NCBI RefSeq assembly: GCF_011082085.1
Contig: NZ_CP041063.1
Span: 1,488,001-1,552,000, forward strand
Origin: Bacillus sp. Cs-700
GTDB lineage: Bacteria > Bacillota > Bacilli > Bacillales > Guptibacillaceae
DNA: 64,000 nucleotides
Direction: 5' to 3'
The position numbers and the translations under genes are program-made. Each line of letters begins with the position of its first letter. Position 1 is the first letter of the stretch. Under the pieces are notes generated by a model. The model ran no database searches. It saw only the letters and a program-made list of their open reading frames with translations, and was not told the origin of the DNA. Of this stretch, positions 46,242 to 50,309 are shown in pieces.

Positions 46242-46312
46242 AAAACACGCATATTTGTCGTTCGTTTGAGGAAGGTTACCAATACAATCCTAAATGGATC
46301 GAGGTGGCTTCC

Positions 46313-46531
46313 GTGTACAAAATGACAATGGTCTTGATCGTGCTCGTCGTCATCACCTTGCTAATAGGGGCTTTTATGACGTACAGGCTTGGACAAAATC
46401 AAAAAGGCGAATATGATAATCAAGGGAACGCCCGGGTCAAATCTTCTTTCTTTAGTAATCCGATTTTTCTTGTTTATATTATCGCAACAGCATTAGCCAT
46501 TGGCTATGTAATCTATTTTACGTTAATTTGA
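46313..46531 (+). CDS. Small two-helix membrane protein
   Basis: A 72-residue protein with two transmembrane helices (about residues 4-25 and 51-71). They are joined by a hydrophilic loop, GQNQKGEYDNQGNARVKSSFF. I do not recognise the family. The GTG at 46313 follows GAGGTGGCTTCC; in-frame starts at 46304 (inside the ribosome site) and 46322 are alternatives. A terminator with a textbook T run lies at 46534. It sits between ytoA and the PAP2-type gene with no obvious operon partner. Confidence 0.65.
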   Translation: MYKMTMVLIVLVVITLLIGAFMTYRLGQNQKGEYDNQGNARVKSSFFSNPIFLVYIIATALAIGYVIYFTLI

Positions 46532-46662: not shown

Positions 46663-47190
46663 TTGAGTAAAATGGTTGGATGGCTTTATGAGCGGGAGTG
46701 TACCGTATTTCGATTTGTGAATTTAACATGTCATTCAAGATATCTCACATCACTTTTTGGCTTTGTTACTCATGCAGGTGGTGCGAGAACAATGGTTTTA
46801 AGCACACTTTTGTTACTGGCTTTGTTACCTGCTCCTATAAAAATATGGGGGTTACAAGCCGCCTTTGCTCTTGCTGCAAGTCATCTACCTGTTCATTTAA
46901 TTAAAAAGTATTATCCAAGGCACCGGCCATACCTGGCAATGCCAGAAACTAAAATGCTCGTCTACCCTCTTAAAGACCATTCTTTTCCTTCTGGACATAC
47001 GACAGCTATATTTTCTGTTCTTACACCGTTTGTCTTTCATCTTCCTTCACTAGCTCTTCCCCTTATTGCTCTTGGGAGTCTAGTTGCCTTATCGCGGATC
47101 TACTTAGGTCATCATTATCCTTCTGATGTTCTCGTTGGTGTCTTACTTGGTGGTGGATCAGGCATTGTTTCAACACTCATATTAGGCTAG
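46663..47190 (+). CDS. PAP2 superfamily lipid phosphatase
   Basis: A 175-residue membrane phosphatase with about five helices. The PAP2 triad of motifs is visible: KKYYPRHRPYL near residue 86, the central PSGHTTA near 111 and SRIYLGHHYPSDV near 143 with the catalytic histidine. Substrates in the family are undecaprenyl diphosphate, phosphatidylglycerol phosphate or phosphatidate. It starts at a TTG after GAAGGGGGATT. It is 16 nt ahead of a glycosyltransferase and in one operon with it, so a role in glycolipid or lipid-carrier chemistry is likely. Confidence 0.88.
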   Translation: MSKMVGWLYERECTVFRFVNLTCHSRYLTSLFGFVTHAGGARTMVLSTLLLLALLPAPIKIWGLQAAFALAASHLPVHLIKKYYPRHRPYLAMPETKMLVYPLKDHSFPSGHTTAIFSVLTPFVFHLPSLALPLIALGSLVALSRIYLGHHYPSDVLVGVLLGGGSGIVSTLILG

Positions 47191-47206: not shown

Positions 47207-48352
47207 ATGAAACTTGCACTCTTTACTGACACGTATTATCCACAGGTCAATGGGGTTTCTCGCACACTCGGTAAGTTAACCACATATATGGATCGTCAGC
47301 ATGTCGATTATATGCTTTTCGCACCCGACTGTCAGGCTGATGAAGACCTGTTCACAAGTAATGTTCATCGGTTTACAAGTATGAAGTTTTTCCTATATCC
47401 CGAATGCCGCATTGCCCTTCCTAAATTAAGTCTTATCCGCAATCAGCTCCAGGGGTTCAACCCGGACCTCCTTCATGTAGCAACACCGTTTAATATCGGA
47501 ATGTGCGGGTTGCACTATGGAAAAAAGAACAATGTGCCCATGGTTGCTTCCTATCATACGAATTTTGACGACTATCTACAACATTATTACCTTGAATGGT
47601 TTTCCCCTGTCATGTGGAAATATTTAACGTGGTTTCATCAGCAATTCTCTAGCACCTTTGTTCCGTCTAACGAAACACGGCACCGGCTAAATGAAAAAGG
47701 TTTTGAGAACCTGAAACTTTGGAGAAGAGGCGTTAACTGTGAACACTTTTCTCCGCTTAAAAAAAATCAGTCACTACGAGAACGATACAATTTTCAGGAA
47801 AAGTATATTCTATTATTTGTTAGTCGACTAGCTCCAGAAAAAAATCTTGAAACGTTACAAAAAATCATGTGGAAACTACCTGATGAATTAAAACGACAAA
47901 CACGATGGTTGGTAGTAGGAGAAGGACCAGCCATGCCTCATTTCAAAGAAAATGCACCTAGAAATGTAACATTCACTGGATACAAAGAAGGAGAAGAATT
48001 AGCTGAGCTATACGCAACTTCAGATCTTTTCATATTCCCATCTGCTACTGAAACATTTGGAAATGTCGCATTGGAGTCTCTCGCCTCAGGAACCCCTGTT
48101 GTAGCTGCAAATGCTGGAGGCTTAACTGACGTTGTGTCAGAAGAACGAAATGGACTTTTCTGCTCCCCTAATAAGGAGGAGGAATACATTAGCGCGATTA
48201 AACGACTCTTATCAGATCATACTGAACGGAGAATGATGGGGTATGAGGGTCGACGCTACGCACTTTCTCAATCTTGGGATGCCATTTTTGGTCGATTATT
48301 AGAGGACTACGAAAAAACAATTGGAGTTAAGAAGATTGCTCAATACGCTTAG
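47207..48352 (+). CDS. GT4-family glycosyltransferase
   Basis: A 381-residue retaining glycosyltransferase with a GT-B fold. The N-terminus (FTDTYYPQVNGVSRTLGKL) is that of diacylglycerol or mannosyl-transfer GT4 enzymes (MgtA/PimB-like). The donor-binding motif SATETFGNVALESLASGTPVVAANAGGL near residue 285 carries the E-x7-E pair. It is probably cytoplasmic at the membrane, transferring a sugar to a lipid acceptor. Its operon partners are a PAP2 phosphatase (16 nt upstream) and a UDP-glucose-dehydrogenase-like protein (14 nt downstream). The sugar and acceptor cannot be named from sequence. Confidence 0.88.
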   Translation: MKLALFTDTYYPQVNGVSRTLGKLTTYMDRQHVDYMLFAPDCQADEDLFTSNVHRFTSMKFFLYPECRIALPKLSLIRNQLQGFNPDLLHVATPFNIGMCGLHYGKKNNVPMVASYHTNFDDYLQHYYLEWFSPVMWKYLTWFHQQFSSTFVPSNETRHRLNEKGFENLKLWRRGVNCEHFSPLKKNQSLRERYNFQEKYILLFVSRLAPEKNLETLQKIMWKLPDELKRQTRWLVVGEGPAMPHFKENAPRNVTFTGYKEGEELAELYATSDLFIFPSATETFGNVALESLASGTPVVAANAGGLTDVVSEERNGLFCSPNKEEEYISAIKRLLSDHTERRMMGYEGRRYALSQSWDAIFGRLLEDYEKTIGVKKIAQYA

Positions 48353-48366
48353 AAAGGAGAAAAATA

Positions 48367-49695
48367 ATGAAGCTTGCTGTATTTGGCACCAATGAAATTG
48401 GTTTAACCGCATCCGCTATCTTCGCTTCACATGGTCATCATGTCGTTTGTACCGATGAGGATCGAAGGCAAATTGTTGCACTCAATTCAGGCGAAGTTAT
48501 TGTGGATGAAGAAGGATTAACAGAAATGCTGACAGAAGCGAAAAAGGCTGGTCAATTAAGCTTCTCTGTTAATCGATTAACAGCCGCTTCTGAAGCAGAC
48601 ATTCTTTTATTCACTGAACCGATTCCAGTTGACGAGAATAAACATCCTGATCTTACTTGTTTCTTTCGTTTCATAAGAAAAATTGCTCTTACAATTAAAC
48701 AACATAAAACCTTCATTATTAAAAGTAATGTTCCCCCAGGAACAGCATCAAAAGTAGAAGACATTCTCATAGAACAGGGTGTGTCTGATCGCTCCTTCGA
48801 TGTTGTGAGTAATCCAGATTTTATTCGAAAAGGCTCAGCAGTAAAAGATTTTACGTATCCTTCTCAAATCATTATCGGCACTTCTTCGCTTCGAGCTTGC
48901 CGTGCGATGGAAACGTTCTATGAGCCTATTACGTCGTCTCTTCAATATATGGACCATACTAGTGCAGAATTAATGAGATACGCTTATCATACGTATCAAT
49001 CATTACAAGTCTCGTGTCTAACGATGATCGCTGGGGTTGCAGAAAAATACGGGGGTGACGTTGAATTAATTCAAGGCGCATTACCGAAGACACCCAAATT
49101 TAGTGAGCACTCTCTTCACCCCGGTTCTTCTTTTCTAGGTACTGACACGTTAGACGAACTTGCTTCATTTCGTTCAATGATCAAAGCATCTTCTTCTGCA
49201 AATCAAATGTTTAAGGCACTAGATGAAATTGATCAATATCAGCCTGAATTATTGATTCAGAAACTGAAAGATTTCCTCGGAACTCTCCAAGGAGCCAAAA
49301 TTGCTATTTTCACTTCATCTACAGTAAAACCGATCCCAGCACTTCCACCTTATGAGTTAGTCATTAAAAAATTGAAAGAGGAAGGTGCTATTGTTCAACA
49401 GTTTGATACTGAAAAAACGAAAGGCAAAAAAGAAAACGAGATGAACACGATTTACGAATCAGTGCAAGATTGCGATGCTCTTTTATTGATGAGTGAACTA
49501 GTGTCCATTAAACAACTAAACTGGGGTAAAATCATTAAAGGACTCAATCTTCCATTAGTCGTAGACGGTCACAACTTATTCCCCCTGGATGAAATGCGAA
49601 TCATTGCTAACACCTATGATTTAATTTACTGTTCAATCGGTCGACCAAACATCTATAAAGGATTAGGTTCCATTTCAGTACAATCAATTCAGTAA
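48367..49695 (+). CDS. UDP-glucose-dehydrogenase-like protein lacking catalytic residues
   Basis: A 442-residue protein with the full UDP-sugar dehydrogenase layout: N-terminal Rossmann fold, central helix, C-terminal UDP-binding domain ending GLNLPLVVDGHNLF ... SIGRPNIYKG. However, the GxGxxG loop reads GTNEIG, the NPEFLREG glutamate is aspartate (D151), the invariant K and N in SAEMIKYAANAF are R204 and H208, and GGSCFPKDT reads GSSFLGTDT, with S255 where the catalytic cysteine should be. KSNVPPGT and the C-terminal motifs are retained. It looks like a pseudoenzyme or an altered activity. The ATG follows AAAGGAGAAAAATA in the PAP2-GT operon, and the end overlaps the next gene by 7 bp. Confidence 0.8.
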   Translation: MKLAVFGTNEIGLTASAIFASHGHHVVCTDEDRRQIVALNSGEVIVDEEGLTEMLTEAKKAGQLSFSVNRLTAASEADILLFTEPIPVDENKHPDLTCFFRFIRKIALTIKQHKTFIIKSNVPPGTASKVEDILIEQGVSDRSFDVVSNPDFIRKGSAVKDFTYPSQIIIGTSSLRACRAMETFYEPITSSLQYMDHTSAELMRYAYHTYQSLQVSCLTMIAGVAEKYGGDVELIQGALPKTPKFSEHSLHPGSSFLGTDTLDELASFRSMIKASSSANQMFKALDEIDQYQPELLIQKLKDFLGTLQGAKIAIFTSSTVKPIPALPPYELVIKKLKEEGAIVQQFDTEKTKGKKENEMNTIYESVQDCDALLLMSELVSIKQLNWGKIIKGLNLPLVVDGHNLFPLDEMRIIANTYDLIYCSIGRPNIYKGLGSISVQSIQ

Positions 49696-50309
49696 AGACG
49701 GTTTGTATAACTGTCCCTTAACGATTCCGCAACGTTTTCTTCACCGATCTTCGTATGATCTGAAAGCATTCTAGTAGCCGGTGCGAGCCCTTCTATGTTT
49801 GGCCAACGCTCCGGTTCCCAGAGATGGGATCGTTTTAGTGCTTTTCCACAGTGAATGAAACATTCTTTTATTTCAACGCCAATTCCAAACAATGGCGTTT
49901 TCCCCTTGTACTCACATCGTGCAAGGAGGCTTTTATCTTTCACAATCGTCGCAAGCCCATTAATGCGCAACGTTTCATCTCGTCCTGGAATCATGAAAAG
50001 CAAACCAACCATTGGGTTTTCTACTATGTTCCTCATCGAGTCCATTCGTTTGTTTCCTGGTCTTTCTGGTATTAATAGATGATAGTCATCTAACGCTTGA
50101 ATAAAGCCTGGCTTATCTCCTCTTGGAGAAACATCACTACCCGTACTTGAATGGGTTGCTATCGTGATAAAAGGTGTAAAGCGAATAAACTCTCTACAAT
50201 GTTCATCAAGAAAAGAAATAACCTTATGTGCAGCAAGCTGACTCGGATTCCCAGCCATCTCTTCAAGTTCTTGCAGCGTTGTAATTTCTTCACCAAAAAT
50301 TCTCTTCAT
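49689..50309 (-). CDS. PPOX-class flavin-dependent oxidoreductase (MSMEG_1061-type)
   Basis: A 206-residue FMN-binding split-barrel protein of the pyridoxamine phosphate oxidase class. The pattern FITIATHSSTGSDVSPRGDKPGFIQALDDYHLLIPERPGNKRMDSMRNIVENPMVGLLFMIPGRDETLRINGLA is characteristic of the MSMEG_1061-type subgroup, used for F420- or FMN-dependent reductions. C-terminal cysteine and tryptophan residues (IHCGKALKRSHLWEPERWP) are typical. The substrate is unknown. It converges on the UDP-glucose-dehydrogenase-like gene, with a 7-bp overlap at the stops. It starts at an ATG. Confidence 0.82.
   Translation of the reverse strand: MKRIFGEEITTLQELEEMAGNPSQLAAHKVISFLDEHCREFIRFTPFITIATHSSTGSDVSPRGDKPGFIQALDDYHLLIPERPGNKRMDSMRNIVENPMVGLLFMIPGRDETLRINGLATIVKDKSLLARCEYKGKTPLFGIGVEIKECFIHCGKALKRSHLWEPERWPNIEGLAPATRMLSDHTKIGEENVAESLRDSYTNRLY

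Follow-up and report, generated by a model that had tools for sequence, protein, structure and literature searches.

Pseudoenzymes are known in many families. As described in PMC5106787 and PMC5201418, pseudoenzymes and prozymes in general have lost the catalytic site, kept the fold and stayed under selection. The closest described enzymes to the protein of this study are UDP-glucose 6-dehydrogenases (UGDs) of the TuaD/BceC/UgdG type (TIGR03026; PDB 2Y0C, 4A7P and 3GG2). PMC9927302 gives four NAD motifs of UGDs, GxGYV, I(A|S)(V|T)(G|P)T(P|D), KST(V|I)P(V|I) and PEFL(R|K|A)EG, and one UDP-glucose motif, (Y|F)xx(P|A)(S|G)xG(Y|F)GG. In the same paper, the assisting residues of the Klebsiella pneumoniae UGD are K197 and N201, and four UGDs, PmrE1-4, lost their in vivo effect when the catalytic Cys was replaced by Ala. 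No paper that joined UDP-glucose dehydrogenase and pseudoenzyme was found in open-licence PMC, and no UGD pseudoenzyme was among the matches listed there under broader terms.

The protein described here resembles the TuaD/BceC/UgdG-type enzymes, with the catalytic Cys, Lys and Asn and the NAD and UDP-glucose motifs replaced. It shares with the pseudoenzymes and prozymes sketched in those two papers a lost catalytic site, a kept fold and selection. Unlike them, it belongs to the UGD family, is bacterial, and is no local duplicate but occupies the position that the active enzyme has in the syntenic locus.

Gene and Predicted Fold

The window, which is the whole stretch of 64,000 nucleotides analysed, is part of the 4.30-Mb single-contig genome of Bacillus sp. 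Cs-700 (G000:C1:1488001-1552000). The UGD-like gene lies at 48367..49695 on the plus strand and encodes an intact open reading frame of 442 aa plus a stop. It consists of an NAD-type Rossmann domain (aa 1-198), a central helix region (aa 199-240), the former Cys loop (codons 241-275, 49087..49191, plus strand), a UDP-type Rossmann domain (aa 311-405) and a conserved C-terminal tail (codons 406-442, 49582..49692, plus strand), which includes IYCSIGRPNIYKGLG. The canonical Cys column is codon 260, which encodes Asp. A frameshift or an artefact of a single assembly was ruled out by 11 full-length orthologues.

The domains and overall fold place the protein among the UDP-glucose 6-dehydrogenases. 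PF03721 (140.2 bits), PF00984 (27.2 bits) and PF03720 (32.7 bits) all scored above their cut-offs, and the score for TIGR03026 (nucleotide sugar dehydrogenase) was 217.6 bits, above the cut-off of 189.8. The AF2 model, in whose input 27 of 31 rows were other UGDs, had a pLDDT of 82.9, and its best structural matches were UGDs. The protein failed the TuaD equivalog NF047673 (234.1 bits versus a curated 700), and the intact UGD L036 of a sister genus also failed it (456.3 bits versus 700).

The gene is preceded on the plus strand by a PAP2-family phosphatase gene (46663..47190, 175 aa, TTG start), the first of an apparent three-gene operon, and by a GT4-family glycosyltransferase gene (47207..48352, 381 aa), which ends 14 bases before the UGD-like start. 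A promoter and terminator scan gave counts near those of shuffles. Downstream, a PNPOx_N (PF01243) gene on the minus strand (window 49689-50309) is convergent with the UGD-like gene, whose last 7 bases lie within it. A homologue sits at the same place in G001, G004, G006, G012 and L033, and was not found in the compared stretches of G002, G003, G010 and G014. Upstream, between a gamma-carbonic-anhydrase gene and PAP2, a plus-strand ORF of 75 aa (window 46304-46531, GTG start) with two hydrophobic stretches is probably a small membrane protein.

Loss of the Active Site

The reference set for the 11 orthologues was 57 canonical UGDs, of which 51 came from genomes of the same order and 6 were encoded on viral contigs. 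At least 97% conservation was found in 75 columns of the canonical set. Of these, 28 were kept in all orthologues, 18 in some and 29 in none, so the loss of the active site is not a matter of chance. The residues lost in all 11 included G9, Y10, V84-G85-T86 of VGTP, E151, N208, G255, G257, S259, C260, K263, D264, F319-K320-P321, R327 and the Arg of DGRN. E151 was replaced by D in every orthologue, and N208 and the DGRN Arg were each replaced by H. K204 was replaced by R in ten; it was kept only in L014, the deepest member of the clade. Column 260, where canonical UGDs have the nucleophilic Cys, held D in seven orthologues, E in three and K in one, and the D264 column held E in ten and N in one.

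The window protein itself has neither the nucleophilic cysteine nor the assisting Lys and Asn of UGDs (K204 and N208, L036 numbering). VGTP has become EPIP. The counterparts of the four NAD motifs are GTNEI, FTEPIP, KSNVPP and PDFIRKG; single positions fit, and none of the motifs is whole. The counterpart of the UDP-glucose motif, SLHPGSSFLG, does not match it. Judged by sequence, the protein is very likely no longer a UGD, and it probably lacks enzyme activity.

An earlier note on this DNA was right about the reading frame, described as 48367..49695 without frameshifts, and KSNVPPGT (119-126) and DGHNLF (400-405) are where it placed them. Its replacements E151D, K204R and N208H were also borne out, as D151, R204 and H208. 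Its loss of GxGxxG went too far: the middle Gly has become N9, but G7 and G12 remain in GTNEIG (7-12), and the loop is damaged, not gone. The note had further proposed a change of the catalytic Cys to Ser at residue 255. That residue is a Ser, but the proposal was misregistered, because the catalytic Cys column is residue 260 (D260 in the window protein). Orthologues with both Cys and Lys, which the note had named as evidence against itself, were found only outside the clade, as the sister-genus gene. Inside the clade, the Cys column was kept in none of 11 and Lys204 in one (L014).

The register was taken from a profile HMM of the 57 canonical UGDs. The canonical Cys aligned to residue 260 without gaps in 10 of 11 orthologues, and L012 had a two-residue gap there. 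Posterior marks were at the top across the whole loop in seven orthologues and lower in L007, L011, L012 and L013. Residue 255 was Ser in seven orthologues, Cys in three and Phe in one. The three cysteines occur in a GSCF motif (L011 of G010, L012 of G002 and L013 of G003), five residues before the canonical position, and are not conserved; their presence makes the register of the earlier note understandable. Matching GSSF to GSCF would take a deletion of five residues and an insertion to compensate for it, and this register was worse after gap costs in all three sequences tested. It is hardly credible that UGD activity persists through a displaced nucleophile at residue 255, Cys or Ser. The GSCF motif speaks for it, as does the shifted register of L011, which scored 12 versus 6 before gap costs. 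The Ser and Phe residues of the other eight orthologues, the two compensating gaps, and the additional loss of N208, the NAD motifs and the UDP-glucose motif all speak against it.

Orthologues and Selection

Full-length orthologues were found in 11 of 14 genomes of the genus, and ten of them were 54-98% identical to the window protein. The close named relatives were Pseudalkalibacillus hwajinpoensis (n = 2) and Bacillus sp. RAR_GA_16, and the genus is called Pseudalkalibacillus here after them. When GTDB-220 contigs were scanned with this one protein, a search able to reach only close relatives, three named loci with 89-95% identity were retrieved. A profile search at E 1e-85, in which four candidates were scored in most genomes and more distant or low-ranked members could be missed, gave matches in 12 of 397 genomes of the order, namely the 11 of the genus and G014.

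Pairwise dN/dS (NG86) was calculated for 12 genome pairs. The pair with G012 was saturated, and 11 pairs were used. For the UGD-like gene, dN/dS was 0.06-0.24 in nine pairs and 0.40 and 0.63 in the remaining two, both with a dS of 0.04. In the same genomes, dN/dS was 0.05-0.11 for GT4 (11 pairs), 0.10-0.43 for PAP2 (11 pairs), 0.12-0.17 for a canonical UGD (6 pairs), and 0.09 and 0.14 for another canonical UGD (2 pairs). The value for the UGD-like gene exceeded that for GT4 in 10 of 11 pairs. The UGD-like gene is under purifying selection, which is weaker than that on GT4, and 194 of its 442 columns are invariant in the clade. We believe that the protein is very probably functional. It has a homologous fold, a catalytic loss shared by all orthologues, and upkeep by selection, as expected of a pseudoenzyme. 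In the G010/G003 pair, dS was 0.04 in the UGD-like gene versus 0.29 in GT4 and 0.59 in PAP2; a recent recombination across the UGD-like gene is possible.

The gene was lost or fragmented in three genomes of the genus, G001, G004 and G006. In G004, an internal deletion left a 64-aa frame that fuses approximately the first 25 residues to the tail, and PAP2 and GT4 were kept. This remnant (L042:7574-7765, G004:C1:1256573-1256764, minus strand) has kept the purine-rich stretch before its start, and may either encode a mini-protein or simply reflect a recent deletion. In G006, the UGD-like gene was reduced to fragments with stops, and PAP2 and GT4 were again kept. In G001, PAP2 was kept, GT4 had shrunk to a remnant of 34 codons, and no trace of the UGD-like gene was found. 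By the GT4 tree, the losses in G004 and G006 are separate. The UGD-like gene is dispensable.

These losses, the two pairs with high dN/dS, and a degenerate and truncated UGD adjoining GT4 in G170, a genome of another genus, are what a decaying, functionless gene heading for loss would produce. Such decay is very unlikely and is already contradicted by the selection data: dN/dS was low in the other nine pairs, and the frame was full-length in all 11 orthologues with their identity and invariant columns. The G170 gene (L118:6845-7594, G170:C17:70844-71593) encodes 249 aa and lies directly after a GT4 of the same kind. Like the window protein, it is a degenerate UGD beside GT4. Unlike it, it belongs to another UGD lineage, has kept the Lys, and has neither the Cys loop nor any of the UDP domain. 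AVGTP has become TSDSF and PEF has become PSF, and the frame ends short of the Cys loop. In the genus of G170, both G146 and G088 have intact UGDs beside GT4.

Phylogeny and Origin

In G014, the only sister-genus genome compared, a UGD with all motifs (L036) occupies the same place after PAP2 and GT4. The order PAP2, GT4, UGD is the same as in the genus of the window. L036 is 37% identical to the window protein and also carries IYCSIGRPNIYKGLG. We take the labels in the shared gene order to be ytqB, ytpB, ytpA, ytoA, PAP2, GT4, UGD, metK, pckA and ytlA. G096, from another family, has PAP2-GT4-UGD-metK with an intact UGD, L050. The GT4 beside it (L050:331-1489, G096:C1) is split into two frames near codon 84, which looks like a frameshift or an assembly error.

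In a UGD tree of 73 rows, the 11 orthologues formed one clade (100/100), sister to L036 (100/95), with L050 next (100/99). When the tail and the six viral rows were removed, the L036 node had 99/90 and the L050 node 100/98. L036 and L050 are thus the nearest to the clade on the tree and hold the same operon place beside metK; unlike the clade, they have the catalytic motifs. The import of a divergent UGD from elsewhere is not favoured, since the trees with and without the tail pair the clade with L036, and the synteny and the shared tail agree. The stem of the clade was 1.76 changes per column. The L036 tip was 0.32, and the corresponding stem in the GT4 tree was 0.24. Rapid change confined to one branch, with slow evolution afterwards, fits a change of function; a relaxed phase followed by new constraint looks alike.

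Putative Glycosyltransferase Partner

The GT4 of the window is probably a lipid glycosyltransferase, with a lipid as the presumed acceptor. In PMC8231724, the GT4 enzymes Agt and GTcp of other groups make glucuronosyl-DAG from UDP-GlcA and DAG, and according to PMC12713373, GpgS, also a GT4, reportedly makes GlcNAc-PG in Pseudomonas. Assignment of the window GT4 as a GlcNAc-PG synthase (NF053787) was rejected, as its 176.4 bits were below the curated 480; it is a related GT4 and a non-member by that test.

Relatives of this GT4 were found in 171 of 397 genomes of the order at E 1e-95. Among 20 GT4 loci with 1.5-kb flanks, two had an intact UGD (L048 and L098), one had a degenerate UGD (L095), 15 had none, and the other two carried the UGD-like remnants of G004 and G006. 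In total, intact UGDs stood beside such a GT4 in nine genomes, five identified by direct comparison (G014, G096, G146, G115 and G257) and four by coordinates and translation (G088, G049, G242 and G119). On the tree they fall into two separate UGD lineages, and their position is either downstream of GT4 or upstream of PAP2. Such repeated pairing suggests UDP-glucuronate as a substrate of the GT4 in those bacteria. Each of the 11 genomes that carry the UGD-like gene also encodes one or more other UGDs with an intact Cys motif, so the supply of UDP-glucuronate need not end with the loss of the enzyme.

Because GT4 was kept in G004 and G006 without the UGD-like gene, GT4 can do without it, and the role of the UGD-like protein would be conditional or modulatory. 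With relatives read as sums of branches, the GT4 branch was 0.11 in G004 versus about 0.08-0.11 for the seven relatives that carry the gene, and 0.11 in G006 versus about 0.19-0.22 for the rows across its fork. The branches were not consistently longer, and therefore no consistent relaxation of GT4 followed the loss.

Distribution of Constraint

The constraint on the protein is inverted relative to that on canonical UGDs. In the Cys loop (241-275), 9 of 35 columns were invariant in the clade, and 17 of 35 were conserved at 90% or more in canonical UGDs. In the tail (406-442), the corresponding numbers were 27 of 37 and 2 of 37. Fisher tests versus the rest of the protein gave p 0.03 for the loop and p 2e-4 for the tail; these values are a guide only, as constraint was measured differently in the two sets and each column was taken to be independent. 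The window protein and L036 are also closest in the tail, with 23 of 36 residues identical versus 0.20-0.43 in the five other regions, and among the 57 canonical rows NIYKG occurs only in L036. A tail that is constrained in the clade and alike in an intact enzyme suggests a constraint apparently independent of catalysis, which points to binding.

The old active site shows a mixed picture. Six of 28 lost columns were fixed for one new residue in all 11 orthologues (I11, E84, D151, H208, S249 and H402), and the stretches around KS.VPPGT (13 of 15 columns invariant) and NPDF (15 of 26) were well conserved. A repurposed pocket would account for this, in which the former active site binds or converts another ligand through D151, H208, E84, S249, H402 and R204 (10 of 11). 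We consider it rather unlikely. Lost columns were less often invariant than columns not conserved in canonical UGDs (6/28 versus 160/368; Fisher p 0.03), the Cys loop is variable, neither the NAD motifs GxGYV and VGTP nor the UDP-glucose motif is left, and the fixation could be structural.

The central helix region was also well conserved, with 24 of 42 columns invariant in the clade. It would suit a prozyme-like subunit, a protein that would join an intact UGD of its cell in mixed oligomers and alter the activity or allostery of that UGD, in the manner of catalytically dead paralogues from other families. PMC9927302 mentions UGD hexamers and tetramers, PMC5201418 offers the trypanosome AdoMetDC prozyme as a precedent, and a potential partner exists in all 11 genomes. 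This possibility, drawn by analogy, appears unlikely. The identity to other UGDs of the genus is at most 31%, these fall in different UGD lineages, and the gene has remained next to GT4 and apart from the intact UGDs.

Discussion

The statement of the earlier note that selection has kept the protein and not the chemistry is well supported by the 11 orthologues, purifying selection, the lost active site and the syntenic intact relative. Its suggestions about function fared unequally. A UDP-sugar sensor was weakened, as the FKP..TDD..R motif was lost together with the UDP-glucose motif. A different reaction draws some support from the six refixed active-site columns. An inhibitor or scaffold of the neighbouring glycosyltransferase is now the leading mechanism, with the reservation that G004 and G006 keep GT4 without the gene and without consistently longer branches. 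A pure scaffold is further argued against by the six refixed columns.

In this study, we believe that binding is more likely than chemistry as the function of the UGD-like protein, and from the gene order we infer that GT4 is its most natural partner. The explanation we prefer, with confidence and doubt in about equal measure, is a pseudoenzyme whose accessory role in lipid glycosylation is non-catalytic and conditional, with GT4 as the presumed partner. The ancestor would have been a UGD whose active site was intact, encoded in a PAP2-GT4-UGD operon, and it may have supplied UDP-glucuronate to a GT4 that presumably puts a sugar on a membrane lipid. On the stem of the 11 Pseudalkalibacillus carriers, the Cys, the Asn, the NAD motifs and the UDP-glucose motif would have been lost in a burst, with the Lys lost in 10 of 11. 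Purifying selection would then have been renewed, and UDP-glucuronate would still have been available from intact UGDs elsewhere in the genome. At present, the protein may contact the co-encoded GT4 at the membrane, with the nearly fixed C-terminal tail as the putative contact, and may tune lipid glycosylation rather than being required for it.

Besides the losses in G004 and G006 and the six refixed columns, further observations count against this explanation. Of the 20 GT4 loci examined, 15 had no UGD beside them, dN/dS was high in two pairs, and it was above that of GT4 in 10 of 11 pairs. More tentatively, an enzyme that fed a lipid GT4 might have turned into its non-catalytic subunit or regulator, docking by a tail constrained since the active ancestor. 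UGDs of two separate lineages stand beside GT4, and in each of two genera one of these neighbours is degenerate.

The finding carries a warning for annotation. The protein passes the cut-off of the NCBI "nucleotide sugar dehydrogenase" model and would be named as an enzyme, very likely wrongly. Intact and degenerate forms stand at the same chromosomal place in sister genera, L014 is an intermediate with the Lys, and some genomes are without the gene. Across these genomes, the change from an enzyme to a probable non-enzyme can be traced step by step.
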